Part shown: positions 2,656-20,466 of the stretch, piece after piece | Position numbering within the stretch: the first letter of the stretch is position 1 | How the letters are laid out: each line of letters opens with the position of its first letter | Source: a virus | Length of the DNA: 21,002 nucleotides | Reading direction: 5' to 3' (one strand) | IMG/VR virus record: IMGVR_UViG_3300045921_000221 | Coordinates: 1 to 21,002 of that record | Translations under genes and position numbers: made by a program | The notes under the pieces: model-generated | The model's database searches: none | What the model was told of the DNA's origin: nothing | The model's input: the letters and a program-made list of their open reading frames with translations, nothing else

Positions 2656-2820
2656 TTACTCATCTCCATCGGGTGCCGCCTGGGCCGCGGCGCAGGAGTC
2701 GCAAATCTGGCCCGTGTCACAGCGGCGAGCGCGAACGTCGTCGGGCAGCGGCTCGGGCACAATCATCTCGCCGACCTTGACACCGCAGGACTCGCACTTC
2801 ACTTCGTAGGTCACGCTCAC
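2656..2820 (-). CDS. 54-residue Cys-rich, probable zinc-ribbon miniprotein
   Basis: A short reading frame begins with GTG at 2820, overlapping the TGA stop of the tail fibre gene (GTGA), and ends with TAA at 2656-2658, two bases before the head closure ATG. It fills the gap between these genes exactly. The peptide has CxxC at residues 9-12 and a second cluster at C34, C40 and C43 (CDTGQICDSC), the layout of a small zinc ribbon or rubredoxin-like knuckle. It is acidic at the C-terminus and has no signal peptide. An alternative GTG lies six bases downstream. The tight fit between neighbours and the paired cysteines argue that it is real. Its function is unknown; it might bind nucleic acid or act as a structural knuckle. 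Confidence 0.7.
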   Translation of the reverse strand: MSVTYEVKCESCGVKVGEMIVPEPLPDDVRARRCDTGQICDSCAAAQAAPDGDE

Positions 2821-5051
2821 TCGAAGGCTCCCTTCAAGGTGTTGAACTTCAGGACGTACCCGGCCTGTCCGTTTTGACCGACATTACCGCTCGCGCCGGT
2901 GCCGAACCCGGTGCCGCCCGCGCCACCGATTCCACCGTTCGCACTGATCGTGCCGCTGTTGTTCAGGGTCTCGTAGATCAGGTACACCACGCCGCCCGCG
3001 CCACCAGCACCACCACCGCCGCCACCGGTGTTGCCAGCCGACGAGTTGCCGCCATTTCCGCCAGCTCCACCGTTCGCCGTGATGAACGCGCTGGCACCGA
3101 CCACGATGTTGCGAGCGATCACGAAGCAGATCCCGCCACCAGCGCCACCGCCCCCACCGCCGCCGCCAGTGTTGGTCCCGTCGCCCGCGCCGGAGCCGCC
3201 GCCAGCGCCAGATCCGGAGCCACCGAGAAGCGTCGCACCATCAATCAGGTGAATGGTGAGTGCCCGCATCTCGCGGGTAATCACGCCACCGCCCGCGCGG
3301 GCTGCACCACCAGCACCAGACCCGCCGCTACCGCCGGCTCCGCTGCTAGAAGATGCGTTCGACACACCCATCGAGTTGACCAGCAAAGTCGGCGCAGTCG
3401 CCTGAGCTCCGACTCCGGTGGTGCCGGTCGCGCCCGCGGTGCCAGCGGACGAGCCGCCAGTTGATGTTGCACTCAGGGCTGTCCCGGCTGTCCCGCCTGT
3501 CGCGCCAGTGGCGCTGCCGCCAGGATTACCGTCGCGTCGGATCGCACCAGTGCCGTTCAGGGTCAGCGTCCCCTTGACGTGGATGCGGTAGCCACCGGTC
3601 GTGATCGTGTGCCCGGTCGCCACGGTCAAGTTGTTCCAGAAGCGGGGCCGCGTCAGCGTGATGTTGCCGCTCGTGGTGAAATCACCTTCGTAGCCGTCGC
3701 CAAAGTATCCGCGAACGGCCTCCGCGTACCACTCGCTGGTGCCCGATGCGTCGGTGGCCTTGAGCACGGCGCCGGCCTCGGATGCACCGGGCGGCAGCGT
3801 CAGCGTTCGATCGGCGGAAAGAACCGGTGCTTTCACGTCGATGTAGTTGCCGTTGTCGGACTCGCGGAACCGAATCTCAAGGCCGCTGCGGGCCTCAAGC
3901 ACGCCGGTCGGGCCGATCACCAACAGGTTGGTGCTGGAACTGTTCTTGACCTCTAGGAGGTTAGCAGACTGGCTCGTCGCAGCCTTCACCACTACCGCGA
4001 CAGTCGCAGAACTAGGAGGCCCGAAGTTGCAGGTGAACCCGGACATGTAGAAGTTCGTAGTCGTGCCGTCGAGGATCATCGCCGCGCCAACGCCGTTGCC
4101 GCGACCGCATCGCATATTCACGACGGTACCGGTCAGGTCGGCATTGGGGCTGTCGTAGGGTCCAAAGTACACGGTGTCGCTTAACACACCGAACATCTGA
4201 GCGCCATACCCGGTGTCGTAGACGCCCGCGATCAGGATTCCGTTCTCAAGCAGGAGCCCGGCGGTGATGAACCGGAACCACGACGTGTACCCCTGCGGAG
4301 CCGACGATGACATGATCCAGTGGCCGCACGCGGGATTGCCGAACTCGTCGTACAAAGAGAATGATGCGTAGTCCACGCCGCCGCTGGCCGTCGTGTAGAT
4401 GTGTAGAGCGCCAATGTCGCTGACCTGGGGGATGATCTCGTTGCGAGCATCGACAGTCGGCTTGTAAAAAATGTACTGAACGTGGTCGTCGTCGAGACGG
4501 CCAGCGAGACCGCCGTGATCGACCCATGCGAGAGTGAGGCTCGCTCCGGTGGACGAACTCGCGGGGACAAACCCAGTCGCGCCCGGATGGTTCTGGGGCA
4601 ACGTCACGGACCATGAACCTGTTGTGGCGTGCGGGAAGATCCCGACCGCGTTAGACAGACCGGGCTGCAGGTAGAGGCCGCCGTGGGAGACCAGAGCGCC
4701 GTATGAGTGCGTCTCGCCATCAGGAGCGCCGTCACCGATGACCGCAAAGAACTTGGTGCCGTCGAATCCGCCGACCGCAAAGGCGTCCGCGCCGTTGCTC
4801 TGGTTCGGGTCCTGATTGACCACAAGGCCCGCCTTGTCGAGCGGCGCGATGATCGTGTTGCGAGCGTCGTCCACGGGATCGCGGGTGATGTACTGCAAGT
4901 GATCGTCGTCGGCCAGACCAGTCAGTGCCCCGTGATCGGTGACGCCGCCACCGCCTCCACCGCCACCGGCATCCAGCACGACTTCGACCGGGCTGGTGTC
5001 GAGCACCAGTTCCACGGGAGAGGTGTCCAGGATGAGATCGGTGCTCGGCAT
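2817..5051 (-). CDS. Glycine-rich tail fibre / receptor-binding protein
   Basis: A 744-residue protein likely to form a trimeric host-contacting fibre at the tail. The frame stays open further upstream, but ATG at 5051 lies one base after the stop of the preceding gene and starts a sensible N-terminus. That N-terminus has a tandem LDTSPVE repeat (residues 8-22), a Gly stretch, and two copies of a fibre motif: DHGALTGLADDDHLQY at 39-54 and DHGGLAGRLDDDHVQY at 178-193. This DDDHxQY motif is common in phage fibres. The middle is beta-rich (330-500). The C-terminal third, from about residue 500, is Gly/Ala/Ser-rich with many GGxGG runs alternating with hydrophobic strands, like the glycine-rich receptor-binding tips of other phage adhesins. 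No chaperone or endosialidase motif was seen. Confidence 0.8.
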   Translation of the reverse strand: MPSTDLILDTSPVELVLDTSPVEVVLDAGGGGGGGGVTDHGALTGLADDDHLQYITRDPVDDARNTIIAPLDKAGLVVNQDPNQSNGADAFAVGGFDGTKFFAVIGDGAPDGETHSYGALVSHGGLYLQPGLSNAVGIFPHATTGSWSVTLPQNHPGATGFVPASSSTGASLTLAWVDHGGLAGRLDDDHVQYIFYKPTVDARNEIIPQVSDIGALHIYTTASGGVDYASFSLYDEFGNPACGHWIMSSSAPQGYTSWFRFITAGLLLENGILIAGVYDTGYGAQMFGVLSDTVYFGPYDSPNADLTGTVVNMRCGRGNGVGAAMILDGTTTNFYMSGFTCNFGPPSSATVAVVVKAATSQSANLLEVKNSSSTNLLVIGPTGVLEARSGLEIRFRESDNGNYIDVKAPVLSADRTLTLPPGASEAGAVLKATDASGTSEWYAEAVRGYFGDGYEGDFTTSGNITLTRPRFWNNLTVATGHTITTGGYRIHVKGTLTLNGTGAIRRDGNPGGSATGATGGTAGTALSATSTGGSSAGTAGATGTTGVGAQATAPTLLVNSMGVSNASSSSGAGGSGGSGAGGAARAGGGVITREMRALTIHLIDGATLLGGSGSGAGGGSGAGDGTNTGGGGGGGGAGGGICFVIARNIVVGASAFITANGGAGGNGGNSSAGNTGGGGGGAGGAGGVVYLIYETLNNSGTISANGGIGGAGGTGFGTGASGNVGQNGQAGYVLKFNTLKGAFE

Positions 5052-5052
5052 G

Positions 5053-5397
5053 TCAGGTGGTGACTTCTTCGAGAACCTTGATGCGGCCGCGCAGATAGGT
5101 CCGGGTGATCGGCCCGGCGAACACCACCTGCAGGTCGTACACGTACTCGCCGGCCGCAAGCGCCACCGTCTTGGAGAGCGTGATCTTCCCGTTCACGCCG
5201 TCCACGGTCATGCCGCCGCCGCCAGTCGTGAACTCCATCGCCGGTGGATCGACCGCGTCGTAGGACGTCCGCACCTGCATCTTGCACGTCGCGCCCGTGA
5301 GATTGATTGGGTCGCCCGTCGCCTTGTCGCGGAGCGTGATCGTCGCCTCAAAGGTGTCGCTCTCGACGACGTTGAAGTTGCGGGTGGCTGGGTCCAT
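5053..5397 (-). CDS. Ig-like BppU N-terminal-type tail accessory protein
   Basis: A 114-residue all-beta protein. The pattern begins FNVVESDTFEATITLRD, then DPINLTGATCKMQVR, a GGMTVDGVNGKITLS turn, and AGEYVYDLQVVF before a final RGRIKVLEEVT strand. This is the pattern of the small Ig-like domain that starts baseplate upper proteins (BppU-N-like) and also occurs as a stand-alone gene next to tail fibres. It may anchor the fibre encoded next or decorate the virion. ATG at 5397 follows the TGA of the adaptor gene by one base, with GAGGG at suitable spacing. The stop is one base before the fibre ATG, so adaptor, Ig protein and fibre are translated as a coupled unit. The fold is inferred from pattern only. 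Confidence 0.6.
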   Translation of the reverse strand: MDPATRNFNVVESDTFEATITLRDKATGDPINLTGATCKMQVRTSYDAVDPPAMEFTTGGGGMTVDGVNGKITLSKTVALAAGEYVYDLQVVFAGPITRTYLRGRIKVLEEVTT

Positions 5398-5398
5398 A

Positions 5399-5908
5399 TC
5401 AAGCCCTCAGAACGCGGTTTCCGGAGACGATCAACTCCCGGAGACGCGCGTCGACGGCCGGATAGGGCTTGAACGACGTGGCAGAGCCGTCGCGGGAGAA
5501 CTGCTTGCTGATGCTGATCGGCCCGACCTGCTTACTCTCCGCGCTCACCATGCGGCCGCTGGCATCGGCAACGGGATCTGGTGCGAGCGGCGCGCTCAGG
5601 GCCCGCAGCGCATACTCGGCGCAGGCCTCGGCGATCTCCACGGGCACGGCGTTCGCGGGCCGACCATCCTGATAGAACGCCTCGTAGCGCGGCCACTCCA
5701 TCGACTGGCTGACGTTGCGGCGGTAGCCCAGGAATGTGAACCGGGTGTCGAGGTAGTCGCTGGCGCGGACGATCGCCTTTTCGATGTTGGAATCGGTGAA
5801 CCCGGCGTAGGAGTTGCCTCGGTCGTCGTGATAGGACTTGAACGCGGCCACGCTGGTGTACGCGTTGGAGTTGGTCAACCCCGTGCCTGTCTCCACAACG
5901 AACGCCAT
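5399..5908 (-). CDS. Head-tail adaptor, DnaT-like (gp6/gp15-type connector)
   Basis: A 169-residue protein with the typical opening of phage connector proteins (VETGTGLTNSNAYTSVAAF), then YHDDRG, a helix ending in IVRASDYLDTRF, a MEWPR motif, and an AEACAEYALRAL helix. The YxDxRG, YLD.RF and WPR signature is the one found in proteins labelled putative DnaT-like ssDNA binding protein, which in phages sit where the first head-tail connector ring belongs. It should form the ring beneath the portal. ATG at 5908 has GGAGG seven bases upstream. It follows the small head-region genes and precedes the Ig-like and fibre genes. I trust the connector role more than any DNA-binding role. Confidence 0.75.
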   Translation of the reverse strand: MAFVVETGTGLTNSNAYTSVAAFKSYHDDRGNSYAGFTDSNIEKAIVRASDYLDTRFTFLGYRRNVSQSMEWPRYEAFYQDGRPANAVPVEIAEACAEYALRALSAPLAPDPVADASGRMVSAESKQVGPISISKQFSRDGSATSFKPYPAVDARLRELIVSGNRVLRA

Positions 5909-5935
5909 TCAGCAACCTCCTCAATCATGCTCGCC

Positions 5936-6184
5936 TCAGATGAACGTGCGACCACCGGGCGGCGTGATCGGCTTGATCGCGGGGCCCTTGAACGTCGTGC
6001 CCTCGGACGTCCGACGCTGGGCCGCGCTCAGCGGCTTCATCGTGTTGTCGTAGTCGTAGACGCCGGTGGCCTCTCGCATCCGCTTGTCGAATCCACCGGG
6101 GCCGATGTCGCCGCCGGGACCGACGTCATTGAAGCTGCCACCGGGTACGATTGTTGAGGTGGGTGGGGGAGGTCCTCCGGCCAT
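5936..6184 (-). CDS. Small Pro/Gly-rich structural-region protein, unknown
   Basis: An 82-residue product starting at ATG 6184, preceded by GGAG at eight-base spacing. The frame could be opened at an ATG at 6226, but that codon lies in a strong terminator hairpin, so the shorter start is chosen. The N-terminal third is Pro/Gly-rich (AGGPPPPTSTIVPGG, GPGGDIGPGG). The rest is polar with DKRMREATGVYDYDNT and a Pro-rich end. No membrane segment or known motif is seen. It is the first gene after the terminator and the last before the head-tail adaptor, so it is probably virion-associated or a head-assembly accessory. Function not recognised. Confidence 0.6.
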   Translation of the reverse strand: MAGGPPPPTSTIVPGGSFNDVGPGGDIGPGGFDKRMREATGVYDYDNTMKPLSAAQRRTSEGTTFKGPAIKPITPPGGRTFI

Positions 6185-15707: not shown

Positions 15708-15870
15708 GCGTCAACCTCTCCGTGGGCGATCACTCATCCCGGCACACACGGGCGTGGTCGCGGAAGCCACCTGGAGGGCCGCGGAGCCATTGTACGGGCA
15801 TCAACCCACTCTCACCCCTACCCGGTTCACCAGAGGCCCCTGCGTCAACCACCCACATCTGCACCCGGTT
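15708..15870 (-). repeat. Short direct repeats in the leader before the terminase genes
   Basis: On the minus strand the nine-base motif GGTTGAYGC occurs three times (15842-15850, 15798-15806, 15708-15716; spacings 44 and 90). AACCGGGT occurs twice (15863-15870 and 15820-15827; spacing 43). The near-multiples of 44 suggest an ordered array. This is the only gap over 150 bases beside the packaging genes, and no convincing gene lies in it. It may be a regulatory leader or a terminase small subunit binding (pac-like) region. Confidence 0.4.
15789..15794 (-). promoter_or_regulatory. Possible -10 box (TACAAT) before the terminase genes
   Basis: TACAAT on the minus strand is one mismatch from the TATAAT consensus and stands out in GC-rich sequence. 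It lies about 95 bases before the small terminase start, in the repeat-bearing leader. No good -35 element is found 17 bases upstream, only GGGTGA-like sequence, so this is weak evidence for a promoter driving the packaging and head genes. Confidence 0.25.
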
Positions 15871-16789
15871 ACGCGGATGCGACGATCTCGCGACAGATCG
15901 CAAGCAGCTTCTCGGCGGGCTCATCGCCAAGCACGTCACGGACGTTCTCGGCCTCCTGACCGGTGAAGGCGAAGTTGAGGCGGAACGGCTGCTCGAACGC
16001 GGCGCTGATGCGGCCGCGCTCCAACTCCGATGTCGCGGCCTCCAGTTTCTCCTTCCGCTCCACCACCTGAGCGGCGGCGGCGCGGGTCATGGCGAACGCG
16101 TTGATCCCGGCCTCGCCCTTCTGCGAAGGCAACTCGACCAGCTTGGTGCTCGCCTCTTCCTTGTCCGCGATGTCTCCCTGGGCGGCGTCGCCTCGCTCGG
16201 GAGTCCACGCGTTATGGAACTCCTCGCCCGCCAGCGCCTCGGCCGCGGGCAGTTCATCCAGAAGATCGTTCAGTTCGGCGTCGCTGATCATCAGCGAGTC
16301 CTGTGCCCACTCGATCGCGCCGAGTTGCTGCAGGTCCTTCAAGACCTCGGTGCTCAACTCGATGTCCTCGGACCCGCGAGCGCGGTTGTGCCGAAGGGTC
16401 GCAATCCGCATCTGCTCGTCGGTCATGTCGACGAACACCACGGGGATCTGGCTCATCCCGAGTTTGCGAGCAACACGCCACCGGTGCTCACCGTCAACGA
16501 TCTGCCGGCTCGACCGGTGCACGATCACGGGCTGCGTGAACCCGTCCTCCTGGATGCTGCGGGTCAAGAGTTCGAGCGTCGCCTCGTCCTGGCGGTTCGG
16601 GTTGTAGGTGTTGGGCTTGACGCTCTCGGTCGCCACGTACTCGATCTGCAGCGACTTGAGGCGGACGGCGTTCTTCTGCACCGCATGGAGACCGCGCTTC
16701 GCGATCTTGTCGGTCACGATCGCGGCCGTCGCCTCGGGGCTGGTGTTGGTTTGAACGCGGGACGTCCCGCCAAGGGGTTCGTTGCTCAC
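15869..16789 (-). CDS. ParB/IbrB-like protein, second tandem copy
   Basis: A 306-residue protein with a ParB N-terminal-type domain at about residues 52-140. It has SVKPNTYNPNRQ, DGFTQPVIV, the signature VDGEHRWRV (GEHR at 100-103), a KLG..QIPVVFVDMT strand, and LRHNRARG (132-139). Known ParB proteins use a GERR-type box and an N-x-R box to bind CTP; here GEHR and HNRARG occupy those places. The C-terminal half is helical and charged and ends in a module shared with the upstream paralogue (FRLNFAFTGQEAENVRDVLG, then EKLLAICRE). GTG at 16789 overlaps the paralogue stop (GTGA). There is no HTH of plasmid ParB, so segregation is unlikely. Nuclease, CTP-switch or transcription roles, as proposed for IbrB-type proteins, are possible. 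Confidence 0.8.
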   Translation of the reverse strand: MSNEPLGGTSRVQTNTSPEATAAIVTDKIAKRGLHAVQKNAVRLKSLQIEYVATESVKPNTYNPNRQDEATLELLTRSIQEDGFTQPVIVHRSSRQIVDGEHRWRVARKLGMSQIPVVFVDMTDEQMRIATLRHNRARGSEDIELSTEVLKDLQQLGAIEWAQDSLMISDAELNDLLDELPAAEALAGEEFHNAWTPERGDAAQGDIADKEEASTKLVELPSQKGEAGINAFAMTRAAAAQVVERKEKLEAATSELERGRISAAFEQPFRLNFAFTGQEAENVRDVLGDEPAEKLLAICREIVASA

Positions 16790-17571
16790 GGCTGATGGCT
16801 CCTCTCGCGACAGATCTGCAACAACTTCTCGACCGGCCTGTTCCCGAGCGCCTTGCGGACGATCCCGGCCTCCTCACCAGTGAACACCAGGCGCAGGCGG
16901 TACACGCTGGTGTCCTTCTCGACCTTGGCTCGCTCCTGCTCCGTCTTGGCCGCGCGAAGGCGGGCCTCGCGCGCCCGGATCACGTCCTGCACGCTGGCGG
17001 TCTGGTGCTCCTCGACCTTGCCGCCCTCCTTGGCGATCATGGACTTGAGGGTGTCCTGATCGGCGTTCGCCAGCGCCGCGGCCTGATCGTTGCTCATCCC
17101 GTCCTGGTGATCGACGGCATCGAGGAAGTTGCCGAGCTCGATGTCGTCCATTTCGAGCGAGTCTTTCAGCCACTCGGTCGCGCCCAGCTTAGCGAGGTCG
17201 CGGAGAACGGCCGCTGCGAGTTCGACGTCCTCTCCACCGCGCGCCCGGTTGTGGCGAAGCGTCGCGATGCGGGCCTGCGCCGGCGTCATGTCGGTCAGGA
17301 CGACGGGAATCTCCTCGAACCCGAGCGCCTTGCACGCTCGCCACCGGTGCTCCCCGTCGACGATCGTCATGGTGCTGCGGATCACGACAACAGGCTGGGT
17401 CATCCCATCCTCGTCGATGCTCTTGCACAGCAACGTGAAGTCGTGCTCACTCTGGCGGTTGGGGTTGTAGTCGTTCGGCTTCACGGCGTCGATGGGCATG
17501 TACTCGACCTTGAGTTGGCCGAGTGCGACGTTGCCCTTCACCACCGGTCCCGCGTTCTTGCCCTTCGCCAT
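16786..17571 (-). CDS. ParB/IbrB-like protein, first tandem copy
   Basis: A 261-residue paralogue of the gene that follows it. The ParB-type domain spans about residues 23-115, with AVKPNDYNPNRQ, DGMTQPVVV, VDGEHRWRA (GEHR at 73-76), EIPVVLTDMT and LRHNRARG (105-112). After a helical linker with KEGGKVEEHQTASVQDVIRA, the last 40 residues repeat the paralogue's end module (YRLRLVFTGEEAGIVRKALG, EKLLQICRE). It lacks the longer N-terminal extension of the other copy. ATG at 17571 has AGGAG upstream; this AGGAG overlaps the stop codon of the dioxygenase gene (TGAGGAG), so the two are coupled. IbrB-like ParB proteins are known partners of IbrA-like PAPS-reductase homologues, and such a homologue lies two genes upstream. 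Confidence 0.8.
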   Translation of the reverse strand: MAKGKNAGPVVKGNVALGQLKVEYMPIDAVKPNDYNPNRQSEHDFTLLCKSIDEDGMTQPVVVIRSTMTIVDGEHRWRACKALGFEEIPVVLTDMTPAQARIATLRHNRARGGEDVELAAAVLRDLAKLGATEWLKDSLEMDDIELGNFLDAVDHQDGMSNDQAAALANADQDTLKSMIAKEGGKVEEHQTASVQDVIRAREARLRAAKTEQERAKVEKDTSVYRLRLVFTGEEAGIVRKALGNRPVEKLLQICRERSHQP

Positions 17572-17583
17572 CGCGCTTGCTCC

Positions 17584-18270
17584 TCACTTCTTGCCGTAAA
17601 GATACCCGGCCTCAGCCGACTTCGGCGCCGCACCGGGCGCAGAGAACGACATCGGCACGCTGATCCGAAGCGGCGACCCGTCGACCGGGCCAACCGCGTG
17701 CGCGATCTGAGAAAGATCGCCGTAGATGAGGCCGATCGACGGCCCGAGAACGGTGTGGAGCTCGCCGCCCTCCACGAACTTGAACCGCCCGCTGTGGAGT
17801 CCGAAAGGGAACAGCACCGCCGTGATCGGCGTGCTGTCGTAGTGCCACTCGTACCCGCGGCTCCCACGGGGCAGGATGTTCACGTTGATCGCCTGCTTCC
17901 ACCCGATCCGCGGCTCTCGCTCGAGCGGGACCCGGTGAAGCTGGTTCAGGAACAGGGCGATCGCGTGCCAGAACGAGCGGAGCGCCGGAAGGTGCTCGCT
18001 GATGAGGTCGCCATCGGCCACGAAGTAGTCGAGGCCGGTGATCTCCGGGTCGTCGTCGCCCGCCGGCTTCTCCAGCGACCCCAGCGCATGATCGGGCGCG
18101 GCCTTGACGTGCCGGGCCATCCCGATGGCGCGGGCGCACGCGCTCATCGCGCGATGGAACTCCACCCAGCCGATGGCCTCGACGATGAAGGTCTCGACCT
18201 CGGGCACGGTGCACACTCGGGCACGGCCACCGAAGTAGTCGTGGAGCTTGGGATAGGGGCTTGGAGGCAT
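17584..18270 (-). CDS. 2-oxoglutarate/Fe(II)-dependent dioxygenase
   Basis: A 228-residue enzyme of the double-stranded beta-helix dioxygenase class. The metal triad is visible: H143 and D145 in EWHYDSTPIT, and H191 in LSQIAHAVGP. R202, eleven residues later (SPLRISVPMSF), would bind the 2-oxoglutarate C5 carboxylate. The strand INVNILPRGSRGY before HxD and the GGELHTVLGPSIGLIYGDLS turn fit the fold. D145 argues for hydroxylation rather than halogenation. ATG at 18270 shares its A with the TGA of the PAPS-reductase-like gene (TGATG). The frame is open far upstream over that gene, but the region is a shadow. The substrate is unknown: a DNA base is attractive because of the neighbours, but a free amino acid, nucleotide or protein side chain is equally compatible. 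Confidence 0.8.
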   Translation of the reverse strand: MPPSPYPKLHDYFGGRARVCTVPEVETFIVEAIGWVEFHRAMSACARAIGMARHVKAAPDHALGSLEKPAGDDDPEITGLDYFVADGDLISEHLPALRSFWHAIALFLNQLHRVPLEREPRIGWKQAINVNILPRGSRGYEWHYDSTPITAVLFPFGLHSGRFKFVEGGELHTVLGPSIGLIYGDLSQIAHAVGPVDGSPLRISVPMSFSAPGAAPKSAEAGYLYGKK

Positions 18271-19439
18271 CAGAAGCTGGGCGTTCCGTTCCATGTGCCG
18301 GCTCCGGGACGAAAGAACTCGGGCTCCATCGGGGGAAACTTCGATGCGCTCAGCAACAGGATCCGCAAGCTGAACGGATCGCCATTGAACATGATCTCCG
18401 TGAGGCGCTTCCAGGACACGATCTTCGCCCCGCCGCACTCGTGACACGGAGTGACCTCCGGCACCGGCCCCGTGCTGTGACGCGCGTGGTGTGCCAGAAC
18501 GTGATCCTTGACGGCGACGCTTCGATCTCGAATCCATTGCGCGGGAGCCTCGTTGATGCAGAGTCGGTGGTAGCACTGTTCCCAAGTTTCGTCGAGGCGG
18601 CGTCGCGGAACTGCGACGTGGCTCCCGAACTGAGCGGCTTGGCGGACGCCCGCAAGTCGACGGGTCACGCGGTCGAACCACTTGGGCCAGGCGCTGGCGG
18701 CGAATCGCAGGTTCTTGACCGCCGCGGTACTCATCGTCACCGGGCCGATGCGGAGTTCGCGGGCCGGGATGCCCATGCGGTGCATCACGTCGTAGGCCTT
18801 GTTGTAGTCCCAGCCGTTCTCCTTGATCGCCTTCCACACGTCGCTGTCGGTCCAGTCGTAGATCGGCCGCAGCTTCCGGTAGGGGACGCCGCTCCGCATC
18901 GCCGCACCGGTCAGGGCGCCGCCGCTGCTCACCAGACCGAGCATTCGCTTGCTGCTCTCGCTGACGCGCAGGCCCACCACGTCGATCAGATCCTTGCCGG
19001 GAGTCACCGGGAACCGCGCGGGGCTCACGATCGCCTCGATGTTCTTCTCCGCGATGTCGACGGCGAAGTCAGGAGGCTGGTACACCCACTGGTCGCGCGG
19101 AATCGTCGGATCGCAGACCCACCAGAACGGCGCGGCTCGGTTGAAGACGTTGACCATGGGCTGCCGCGCCATGAGCCAGTGCATCCGAACCTCGGGCCGC
19201 TGGGACAGGCGAAGCAGGTACTCGTGGGTGCCCGGATAGAGAATCTCCTCCTCGCGGAACACCACGTCGACCGGGAGCGCGCCGGCCTGCTCCGCGGCGA
19301 TCAGCGTCAACTCGGTGCACACCGCACTGTCCTTGCCGCCGCTCACGGAGACCACGACGCGGTGCCCCTCCTGGAAGCACTCGCTGATGCGACTGATGGC
19401 CGCGTCGAACACGTTGTCCCCGGTGTAGATTCGCCTCAT
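18270..19439 (-). CDS. IbrA-like PAPS-reductase-family PP-loop ATPase
   Basis: A 389-residue enzyme with the ATP-pyrophosphatase P-loop SGGKDS at 33-38 in VVVSVSGGKDSAV. Further family marks are VDVVFREEEILYPGTHEYL (57-75), WWVCDP...RDQWVYQPP (106-123), GLRVSESSKR (156-165) and LRPIYDWTDSDVW (190-202). The C-terminal CHEC pair (332-335) and extended tail go beyond true PAPS reductases and resemble the IbrA/DUF3440 type common in phages and in dnd-like sulfur systems. It probably adenylates or reduces a substrate other than free PAPS, but which is unknown. ATG at 19439 overlaps the methyltransferase stop (ATGA), and its stop overlaps the dioxygenase start. Confidence 0.85.
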   Translation of the reverse strand: MRRIYTGDNVFDAAISRISECFQEGHRVVVSVSGGKDSAVCTELTLIAAEQAGALPVDVVFREEEILYPGTHEYLLRLSQRPEVRMHWLMARQPMVNVFNRAAPFWWVCDPTIPRDQWVYQPPDFAVDIAEKNIEAIVSPARFPVTPGKDLIDVVGLRVSESSKRMLGLVSSGGALTGAAMRSGVPYRKLRPIYDWTDSDVWKAIKENGWDYNKAYDVMHRMGIPARELRIGPVTMSTAAVKNLRFAASAWPKWFDRVTRRLAGVRQAAQFGSHVAVPRRRLDETWEQCYHRLCINEAPAQWIRDRSVAVKDHVLAHHARHSTGPVPEVTPCHECGGAKIVSWKRLTEIMFNGDPFSLRILLLSASKFPPMEPEFFRPGAGTWNGTPSF

Positions 19440-20188
19440 CGACCGAGCTCCAGAACGGCATACGAGAAGTCGGGTCGCACGATCAGGCCGGTCCTGCGTG
19501 CGATCGCTGCTTCACATGGTAGCAGACGTGCGACGCGACGGGCAAGCCATCCGGAGTAAGACCCGATGCTGCGGCTCAGCACGGGGCGGGAGCGGCCGAC
19601 AAACTCCGCGACGTACTCGAGATCGTCGGCGCGGTAGGACATCGGGCTGGTGCCGTCGACGTTCATCCGCACCATGCCGTAGCGGCCGGACTCAAAGCGG
19701 TCGGGCGCGGGGCAGGCGATCACCATGCGGCAGCGCTCGGCACCCATCTCGGCCAGGGCGCGGACCACGCGGGCGAATCCGACGATGTAGGGCGAGCAGT
19801 AGAGCATCAGGATCAGATCGGGCCGGGTCGGAATCGTGATCTCGCGGCAGTACTGCTCCGCGGTCATCTGCCGGTACTCGGTGTGCCAGCCCGGAACGGG
19901 GCGCCGGCGCGCGATCTCGAGCATCTTCTCGCTCGGGTCGACGCCCTCGTAGAACCCGCTGTACCAGATGTCGTTGCAGAGCCGCAGTCCGAGACCGGTT
20001 CCACACCCGATGTCCAGGACCCGCATCGGGGCGCGGCCTCTCATCAGGTTGCGGACGAACTCGTCCTCGGCGGCGTCGATGGGTCGCTGATAGACCCCGT
20101 CGTATTGCTCCGCGACCGCGTCGTACGCGGCTGCCGGGTTGATGGGGCCGACACGGGACGCAGAGCGATGTTCTTGGACGACAGCCAT
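19436..20188 (-). CDS. Class I SAM-dependent methyltransferase
   Basis: A 250-residue Rossmann-fold methyltransferase. The start at ATG 20188 has GGAGG seven bases upstream and begins an N-terminus typical of small-molecule type enzymes (AAYDAVAEQYDGVYQRP, residues 20-36). Motif I VLDIGCGTG is at 57-65, the acidic SAM-ribose residue is D84 in YEGVDPS, and post-motif strands include LILMLYCSPYIVGF. There is no NPPY or DPPY (amino-DNA methylase) motif and no PC motif for cytosine methylation, so a standard DNA base methylase is unlikely. The 250-residue length with GxGxG fold suits methylation of a small molecule, nucleotide or modified base. Its end overlaps the next gene (ATGA). The long upstream open frame is a shadow of the VRR-NUC gene. 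Confidence 0.82.
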   Translation of the reverse strand: MAVVQEHRSASRVGPINPAAAYDAVAEQYDGVYQRPIDAAEDEFVRNLMRGRAPMRVLDIGCGTGLGLRLCNDIWYSGFYEGVDPSEKMLEIARRRPVPGWHTEYRQMTAEQYCREITIPTRPDLILMLYCSPYIVGFARVVRALAEMGAERCRMVIACPAPDRFESGRYGMVRMNVDGTSPMSYRADDLEYVAEFVGRSRPVLSRSIGSYSGWLARRVARLLPCEAAIARRTGLIVRPDFSYAVLELGR

Positions 20189-20466
20189 TCGCGGACCTCC
20201 TCGACGGACTCCACCACCAGGACCTCGCAGCCCGCTTGCTGGAGTACGCCCCCGGTGTGGATCTGCAGCGGTGTGCGCACCTCGCCGGGGCGCTTGACCT
20301 CGATCCACACGCTGTGCCCGCGAAGGGCCTCGCACGTGAAGTACAGATCGGGGATGCCACCGCCCTGCATCCTGTTCCCGTGCATCTTCCTCACGAAGTG
20401 GTGCGGGACGCGCTGCAGGAGCGCGATGATCCGCGTCGTGATGTTCCGCTCGAGTGGGCGTGGCAT
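20044..20466 (-). CDS. VRR-NUC domain nuclease
   Basis: A 140-residue product from ATG 20466 with the compact VRR-NUC fold of the PD-(D/E)xK superfamily. E6 is in the first helix (RPLERNITTRIIALL), GGGIPDLYF has the catalytic D40, WIEVKRPG has E56 and K58, and a following PLQ has the conserved Q68. Phage VRR-NUC proteins act as structure-specific nucleases, for example in replication or recombination intermediates. The start is uncertain: the frame stays open to ATG 20652 with another ATG at 20523, and none has a good ribosome-binding site. The C-terminus (SAPSTRQPRTTRSRSNTTG and on) is low-complexity and overlaps the methyltransferase by 145 bases in another frame; it probably adds little to the nuclease. 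Confidence 0.78.
   Translation of the reverse strand: MPRPLERNITTRIIALLQRVPHHFVRKMHGNRMQGGGIPDLYFTCEALRGHSVWIEVKRPGEVRTPLQIHTGGVLQQAGCEVLVVESVEEVREWLSSKNIALRPVSAPSTRQPRTTRSRSNTTGSISDPSTPPRTSSSAT

Follow-up and report, generated by a model that had tools for sequence, protein, structure and literature searches.

Gene pairs encoding a PAPS (3'-phosphoadenosine 5'-phosphosulfate)-reductase-like and a ParB-like protein are common in phages, where they are filed as of unknown function, and one such pair, IbrA and IbrB, has been described as activating genes of prophages. The virus record analysed here (IMGVR_UViG_3300045921_000221, 21,002 bases, hereafter the window) contains proteins of both types, and we find them to form the core of a modular cassette with DNA-modifying partners, together with an S-adenosylmethionine (SAM)-dependent methyltransferase (MT) and, in the window, a putative 2-oxoglutarate (2OG)-Fe(II) oxygenase. 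The cassette resembles IbrA/IbrB in that a PP-loop protein adjoins a ParB-like protein, with the oxygenase gene lying between the two in the window, but it differs by the MT found in most cassettes and by a set of tailoring enzymes that are swapped for one another. DndC and DndB of Dnd phosphorothioation likewise belong to the PP-loop and ParB superfamilies, whereas the cassette is devoid of conserved cysteines and of the Dnd-specific partners.

The CmoA/CmoX/CmoY system of cytosine hypermodification combines a SAM enzyme and a DNA methyltransferase with an AMP-forming enzyme that uses ATP and, frequently, with a ParB-domain protein, and is in these respects similar to the cassette; its product, carboxymethylcytosine, is a proven phage hypermodification, and the ParB-domain genes present in many of its clusters have no assigned role (PMC12783734). 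The PP-loop enzyme of the cassette is however of the PAPS-reductase type and not of the asparagine-synthetase type, and the oxygenase and glycosyltransferase (GT) modules are additional. A further likeness is to the ParB-DNA methyltransferase fusions (phrog_498, PDLC03229 and the methylase of Wolbachia phage WO), in which the window ParB proteins correspond to the N-terminal half and the cassette DNA methyltransferases to the C-terminal half, but the cassette has these as separate genes and adds the PP-loop enzyme and the MT. Finally, Corndog-type mycobacteriophage virion glycosylation loci have the glycosyltransferase family phrog_854 and a methyltransferase in common with the cassette, but they run without PP-loop or ParB genes and are situated next to portal and capsid genes, not ahead of the terminase; Firecracker and Catdawg stood in for Corndog in this comparison. 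The searchable literature yielded no described system with exactly this set, a mention in the Iyer 2013 base-modification survey being possible.

A modular cassette ahead of the terminase

Scans of IMG/VR with PP-loop alignments yielded 61 and then 80 loci (designated by L numbers), and GTDB genomes added five metagenome-assembled genome (MAG) contigs; clustering the PP-loop relatives from both sources at 90% identity gave 52 clusters, whose PP-loop proteins are mostly 45-55% identical to that of the window. A ParB gene is found near the PP-loop gene in 50 of these clusters and an MT gene in 42, and the order MT-PP-(variable)-ParB recurs far beyond chance. The interchangeable genes are located between or beside PP and ParB and comprise a phrog_854-type GT (15 clusters, none being found in the other 37), a beta-class DNA methyltransferase (MTase; 15 clusters), a small protein that we call WAKTY (16 clusters) and the window-type oxygenase (three clusters), while 11 clusters have the bare order MT-PP-ParB. 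Thus L010 reads MT-PP-MTase-ParB-TerL, L018 reads MT-PP-WAKTY-GT-ParB, L100 and L101 both read VRR-MT-PP-GT-MTase-ParB, L096 reads 2OG-PP-(GT-like)-MTase-ParB-ParB and then continues into other phage genes, and L089 holds a combined set in the order MT-PP-2OG-GT-MTase-ParB. On a quick PP-loop tree, in which poorly resolved forks may inflate the counts, the minimum number of changes was 10 for the GT, 10 for the DNA methyltransferase, eight for WAKTY and three for the oxygenase, and the tailoring genes have clearly been gained and lost repeatedly. These findings support the notion that the cassette is a real, recurring and modular functional unit, of which the window holds one version.

The original prediction had taken six genes at 15869-20466 as one coupled cassette and had proposed to look for the same order elsewhere. 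All six were recovered on the minus strand by open reading frame (ORF) and family searches, and their co-occurrence was indeed found across the 52 clusters; the part that recurs is the core of MT, PP-loop enzyme and ParB, whereas the VRR-NUC-like gene, a homologue of which lies beside MT in only four of the 52, is an optional neighbour, and the second ParB is likewise optional, most cassettes having a single ParB gene. The junctions from MT to ParB2 are overlapping or nearly touching as had been described, with ATGA at MT/PP, TGATG at PP/2OG, a 12-nt gap containing TGAGGAG at 2OG/ParB1 and GTGA at ParB1/ParB2. The ATG start of MT is preceded by GGAGG, and the MT and VRR-NUC-like ORFs overlap by approximately 145 nt, a feature that the original prediction had not claimed. 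Overlaps of this kind are usual within operons of phages and are weak evidence by themselves; it is the recurrence that constitutes the evidence.

The location ahead of the terminase is also conserved. Of 34 contigs, 22 had a detectable large terminase gene (TerL), which in 20 of these 22 shares the strand of the PP-loop gene and lies 1.4-7.5 kb downstream of it. In the window the cassette is followed on the minus strand, in agreement with the earlier statement that the terminase genes come directly after it, by a helix-turn-helix (HTH) protein gene in the small-terminase position (15714-15049, HTH_23), which overlaps the start of the TerL gene (15056-13380, phrog_2 at 7.8e-17). The HTH protein matches phrog_645, which is labelled 'RNase E', but its position suggests a small terminase and that the label is wrong. 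The copy on MAG contig L069 looks like a prophage, since terminase-like and portal-like genes, judged by eye from their sequences, follow its ParB gene.

Component proteins and known modification routes

The PP-loop enzyme (19439-18270, minus strand) anchors the cassette and matches PF01507 at 1.2e-9 and phrog_2302 at 3e-52, and its SGGKDS motif is intact, as had been claimed. An AlphaFold model (predicted local distance difference test score, pLDDT, of 86.7) found the PAPS domain of FAD synthase as its best PDB match (3.5e-8), with CysH and CysD also among the closest solved structures. The DndC model TIGR03183 scores only 13.8 bits on the protein against a cut-off of 290, the PADLOC DndC model scores 16.7 bits, and no cysteine is invariant among 26 PP-loop members. 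Given the likeness to FAD synthase, CysH and CysD, the lack of an invariant cysteine and the low DndC score, we infer that the enzyme is more likely to adenylate an acceptor at the expense of ATP than to transfer sulfur, and the sulfur chemistry originally envisaged finds no support.

MT (approximately 20188-19436, minus strand) has a UbiE/BioC-like class I fold and matches PF13489 (Methyltransf_23, 1.3e-10) and PF13649 (Methyltransf_25, 1e-8), confirming the methyltransferase predicted for the cassette, and its profile matches are to small-molecule or N- or O-methyltransferases. It does not seem to be a CmoA, which is absent from the 25 commonest matches of 36 MT proteins. The VRR-NUC-like nuclease of Holliday-junction-resolvase type (20466-20044, minus strand) matches PF08774 below the cut-off (18.8 bits, E 0.0018), phrog_93 endonuclease at 3e-14 and phrog_5702 resolvase at 1e-4.

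The protein in the variable position of the window (18270-17584, minus strand) had no direct match in Pfam, PHROG or NCBIfam, and a sequence search of the PDB gave none either. It has however homologues inside similar cassettes, in L089 (phmmer 3.8e-10) and L096 (1.7e-10), and that of L089 exceeds the gathering score of PF13640 (2OG-FeII_Oxy_3; 33.9 against 27 bits). Since in addition all three known members share the HxD, distal histidine and arginine positions (H143, D145, H191 and R202) without exception, assignment of the window protein as a 2OG-Fe(II) oxygenase is well supported at the sequence level, and it is PF13640-like rather than TET/JBP-like. The HxD...H...R motif and the 2OG class that had been read from the sequence consequently stand, the latter by way of L089, whereas the family is PF13640 in place of the PF12851 implied by a TET/JBP assignment. 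A wider scan of IMG/VR returned the same three members only, and an AlphaFold model built from these three sequences (pLDDT 38) was unusable. The contigs of L036 and L047 contain other PF13640 oxygenase genes, separated from the cassette by at least some 10 kb.

ParB1 (17571-16786) and its tandem copy ParB2 (16789-15869), both on the minus strand, match PF02195 at 1.2e-14 and 3.5e-15, respectively, and are 44.5% identical, and the motifs IVDGEHRWRA and RHNRARG are retained when conservation is evaluated over 59 ParB proteins. ParB_N is the sole Pfam match above cut-off, with no HTH family. A partition ParB was considered and rejected on account of this lack of an HTH domain, a TIGR00180 score of 51.3 against a cut-off of 58.45, and the lack of a ParA in the window cassette. 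The window ParB matches the PADLOC Type II methyltransferase model PDLC03229 at 8-155 and the L089 cassette DNA methyltransferase matches it at 167-281, the cassette DNA methyltransferases of L004 and L067 score above the PF01555 cut-off, and the 'DNA methylase' of Wolbachia phage WO is a fusion of ParB with a cassette-type DNA methyltransferase located upstream of the terminase. As judged from these alignments, the ParB protein and the cassette DNA methyltransferase are the halves of one known fused family. ParB1 also gave weak matches to the ParB-fold ADP-dependent serine kinase SerK (8e-6) and to SbnI (8e-4), and a nucleotide-handling or kinase role for phage ParB-like proteins is possible.

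Hallmark genes of known DNA-modification routes were also searched for among cassette carriers, which are often partial records, so that absences are suggestive only. Neither the thymidylate-synthase homologue PF00303 of the T4 and SPO1-type hydroxymethyl-pyrimidine route nor the C5-methylase PF00145 was found in any of 20 carriers. The latter absence argues both against a TET/JBP route, for which PF12851 was moreover over cut-off in none of 34 carriers (the control genomes being empty as well), and against the CmoA/CmoX/CmoY route, with CmoA of which MT does not rank. The Dpd deazaguanine route was likewise rejected, since the TGT-like PF01702 was found in none of the 34.

A proposed DNA-modification pathway and its alternatives

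DNA modification is the best-supported reading of the gene content, because the neighbouring genes include a DNA methyltransferase and a GT, because of the fused ParB-methyltransferase family, and because the position before the terminase is conserved. The cassette may well decorate phage DNA, or nucleotides bound for DNA, before packaging, a proposal for which we regard the balance as even. The pathway would have as its core the small-molecule-type SAM methyltransferase, the PP-loop ATP pyrophosphatase and the ParB-like NTPase-fold protein, acting as a late cassette around which tailoring enzymes are swapped: the window has the 2OG-Fe(II) oxygenase, and other versions have a GT-A-like glycosyltransferase, a beta-class DNA N6/N4 methyltransferase or both. 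ParB would bind a nucleoside triphosphate and would hold the DNA or present it to the enzymes. The initial chemical handle would come from the tailoring enzyme, in the window as a hydroxyl introduced by the oxygenase; the PP-loop enzyme would spend ATP on adenylating a group so that it becomes substitutable, and the SAM enzyme would cap the product. More tentatively, and with some doubt on our part, this could be a new kind of hypermodification, in which a fixed core of PP-loop adenylating enzyme, SAM methyltransferase and ParB-like clamp is combined with oxygenase, GT or N6/N4 DNA methyltransferase modules that choose the base or the decoration, without the known hydroxymethyl- or carboxymethyl-pyrimidine routes. 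If true, it would extend the chemistry by which phages protect their DNA and would give ParB proteins a function beyond partition.

Several points weigh against DNA modification. The chemistry of the cassette is itself something that we infer; both MT and PF13640 represent broad families, many of whose substrates are not DNA; the window has no DNA methyltransferase, which is the strongest DNA-specific part and is present in 15 of the 52 cassettes; the usual makers of hydroxymethyl or methyl handles were not found in 20 carriers, albeit on contigs that are often partial; and the cassette GT family phrog_854 includes Firecracker gp36, which adjoins capsid genes. The last point would fit a reading in which the oxygenase, MT and GT act on capsid or tail proteins and not on DNA, since relatives of gp36 in Corndog have been proposed to decorate the capsid (PMC4351075), and the three glycosyltransferases and the acetyltransferase in the run of Microbacterium phage Rasputia fit such a virion-protein or surface-glycan modification as well. 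This would however leave ParB, the beta-class DNA methyltransferase and their fusion in other phages without explanation, and with no GT found in 37 of the 52 clusters we consider it unlikely.

A regulatory system was part of the original prediction, and regulation by an IbrA/IbrB-type pair, in which the PP-loop and ParB proteins control late or prophage expression and the other genes are hitch-hikers, stays a rival. The window PP-loop protein is 24.7% identical (1e-19) to the annotated IbrA of Escherichia phage PhiR5_2, the distant L049-L063 clade has PP followed by ParB without a tailoring gene, and the 11 bare MT-PP-ParB clusters point the same way. We nevertheless find it rather unlikely, since the ParB proteins have no HTH domain in Pfam and the recurrent MT would be left unexplained, as would the GT, DNA methyltransferase and oxygenase that replace one another between PP and ParB. 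The at least 10 tree changes each for the GT and the DNA methyltransferase, and the PF13640 genes far from the cassette in two carriers, would also suit mere accretion, without a joint pathway, of an orphan DNA methyltransferase/ParB system and unrelated morons at an insertion hot spot upstream of the terminase. That the PP-loop gene keeps MT and ParB as companions in approximately 50 clusters, mostly at 45-55% PP-loop identity to the window, that the exchanged gene set is narrow and repeating, and that domains are fused (WAKTY-MT and ParB-MTase) make this improbable. Dnd-like phosphorothioation, or other incorporation of sulfur into DNA, is suggested by the PP-loop membership of the PAPS-reductase superfamily and by the counting of DndB in the ParB superfamily, but it is highly improbable in view of the missing invariant cysteines and low DndC scores given above, and no DndA, DndD or DndE was seen in the cassette. 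The hypothesis of a modification or regulatory system accordingly holds as regards a real functional unit, best read as DNA modification, and finds no support as regards its TET/JBP and sulfur components.

Cultured relatives and further observations

No match was obtained in 50,697 phage records for the oxygenase, its relatives, one cassette GT or one cassette DNA methyltransferase. The cultured soil phages Rasputia, Leaf, Hendrix and Wheelbite carry related versions of the cassette, with PP-loop proteins approximately 28-31% identical to that of the window over about two thirds of its length, which opens the puzzle to direct test. The right end of the Rasputia genome holds its three glycosyltransferases, acetyltransferase and methyltransferase together with the PP-loop gene, and the left end holds three ParB genes, an HTH gene and the terminase; the two ends are likely contiguous, since Hendrix belongs to the same genus and has a circularly permuted genome. 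The right end of Leaf is the same as that of Rasputia, and Arthrobacter phage Wheelbite has the order ParB-PP-ParB-methyltransferase-HTH-terminase.

WAKTY (L028:7113-7403, L067:7182-7484 and 14 other clusters) is a protein of approximately 96 residues with the motif WAKTY...APHxY...YKYW...INR and no family match in Pfam, PHROG or NCBIfam; Rasputia gp155, directly ahead of the PP-loop gene, is a fusion of WAKTY with an MT domain. In the L049-L063 clade, which has no MT, a short ParB gene directly follows the PP-loop gene, mostly overlapping it, and another ParB gene is often found ahead of it. In L096 an additional methyltransferase-like gene (5587-6102) lies between the small-terminase-like and terminase-like genes. 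The TerL match on the L093 contig (G032:C1:1314-2927) runs through eight TAG, one TGA and one TAA codon, which may reflect a decayed gene, extension of the alignment or recoding. As for the window itself, the IMG/VR contig IMGVR_UViG_3300045911_000316 is 99.99% identical to it over 10.7 kb, the part compared, and the structural region of the window contains a 780-residue ORF (2817-5159) with a very glycine-rich C-terminal half.

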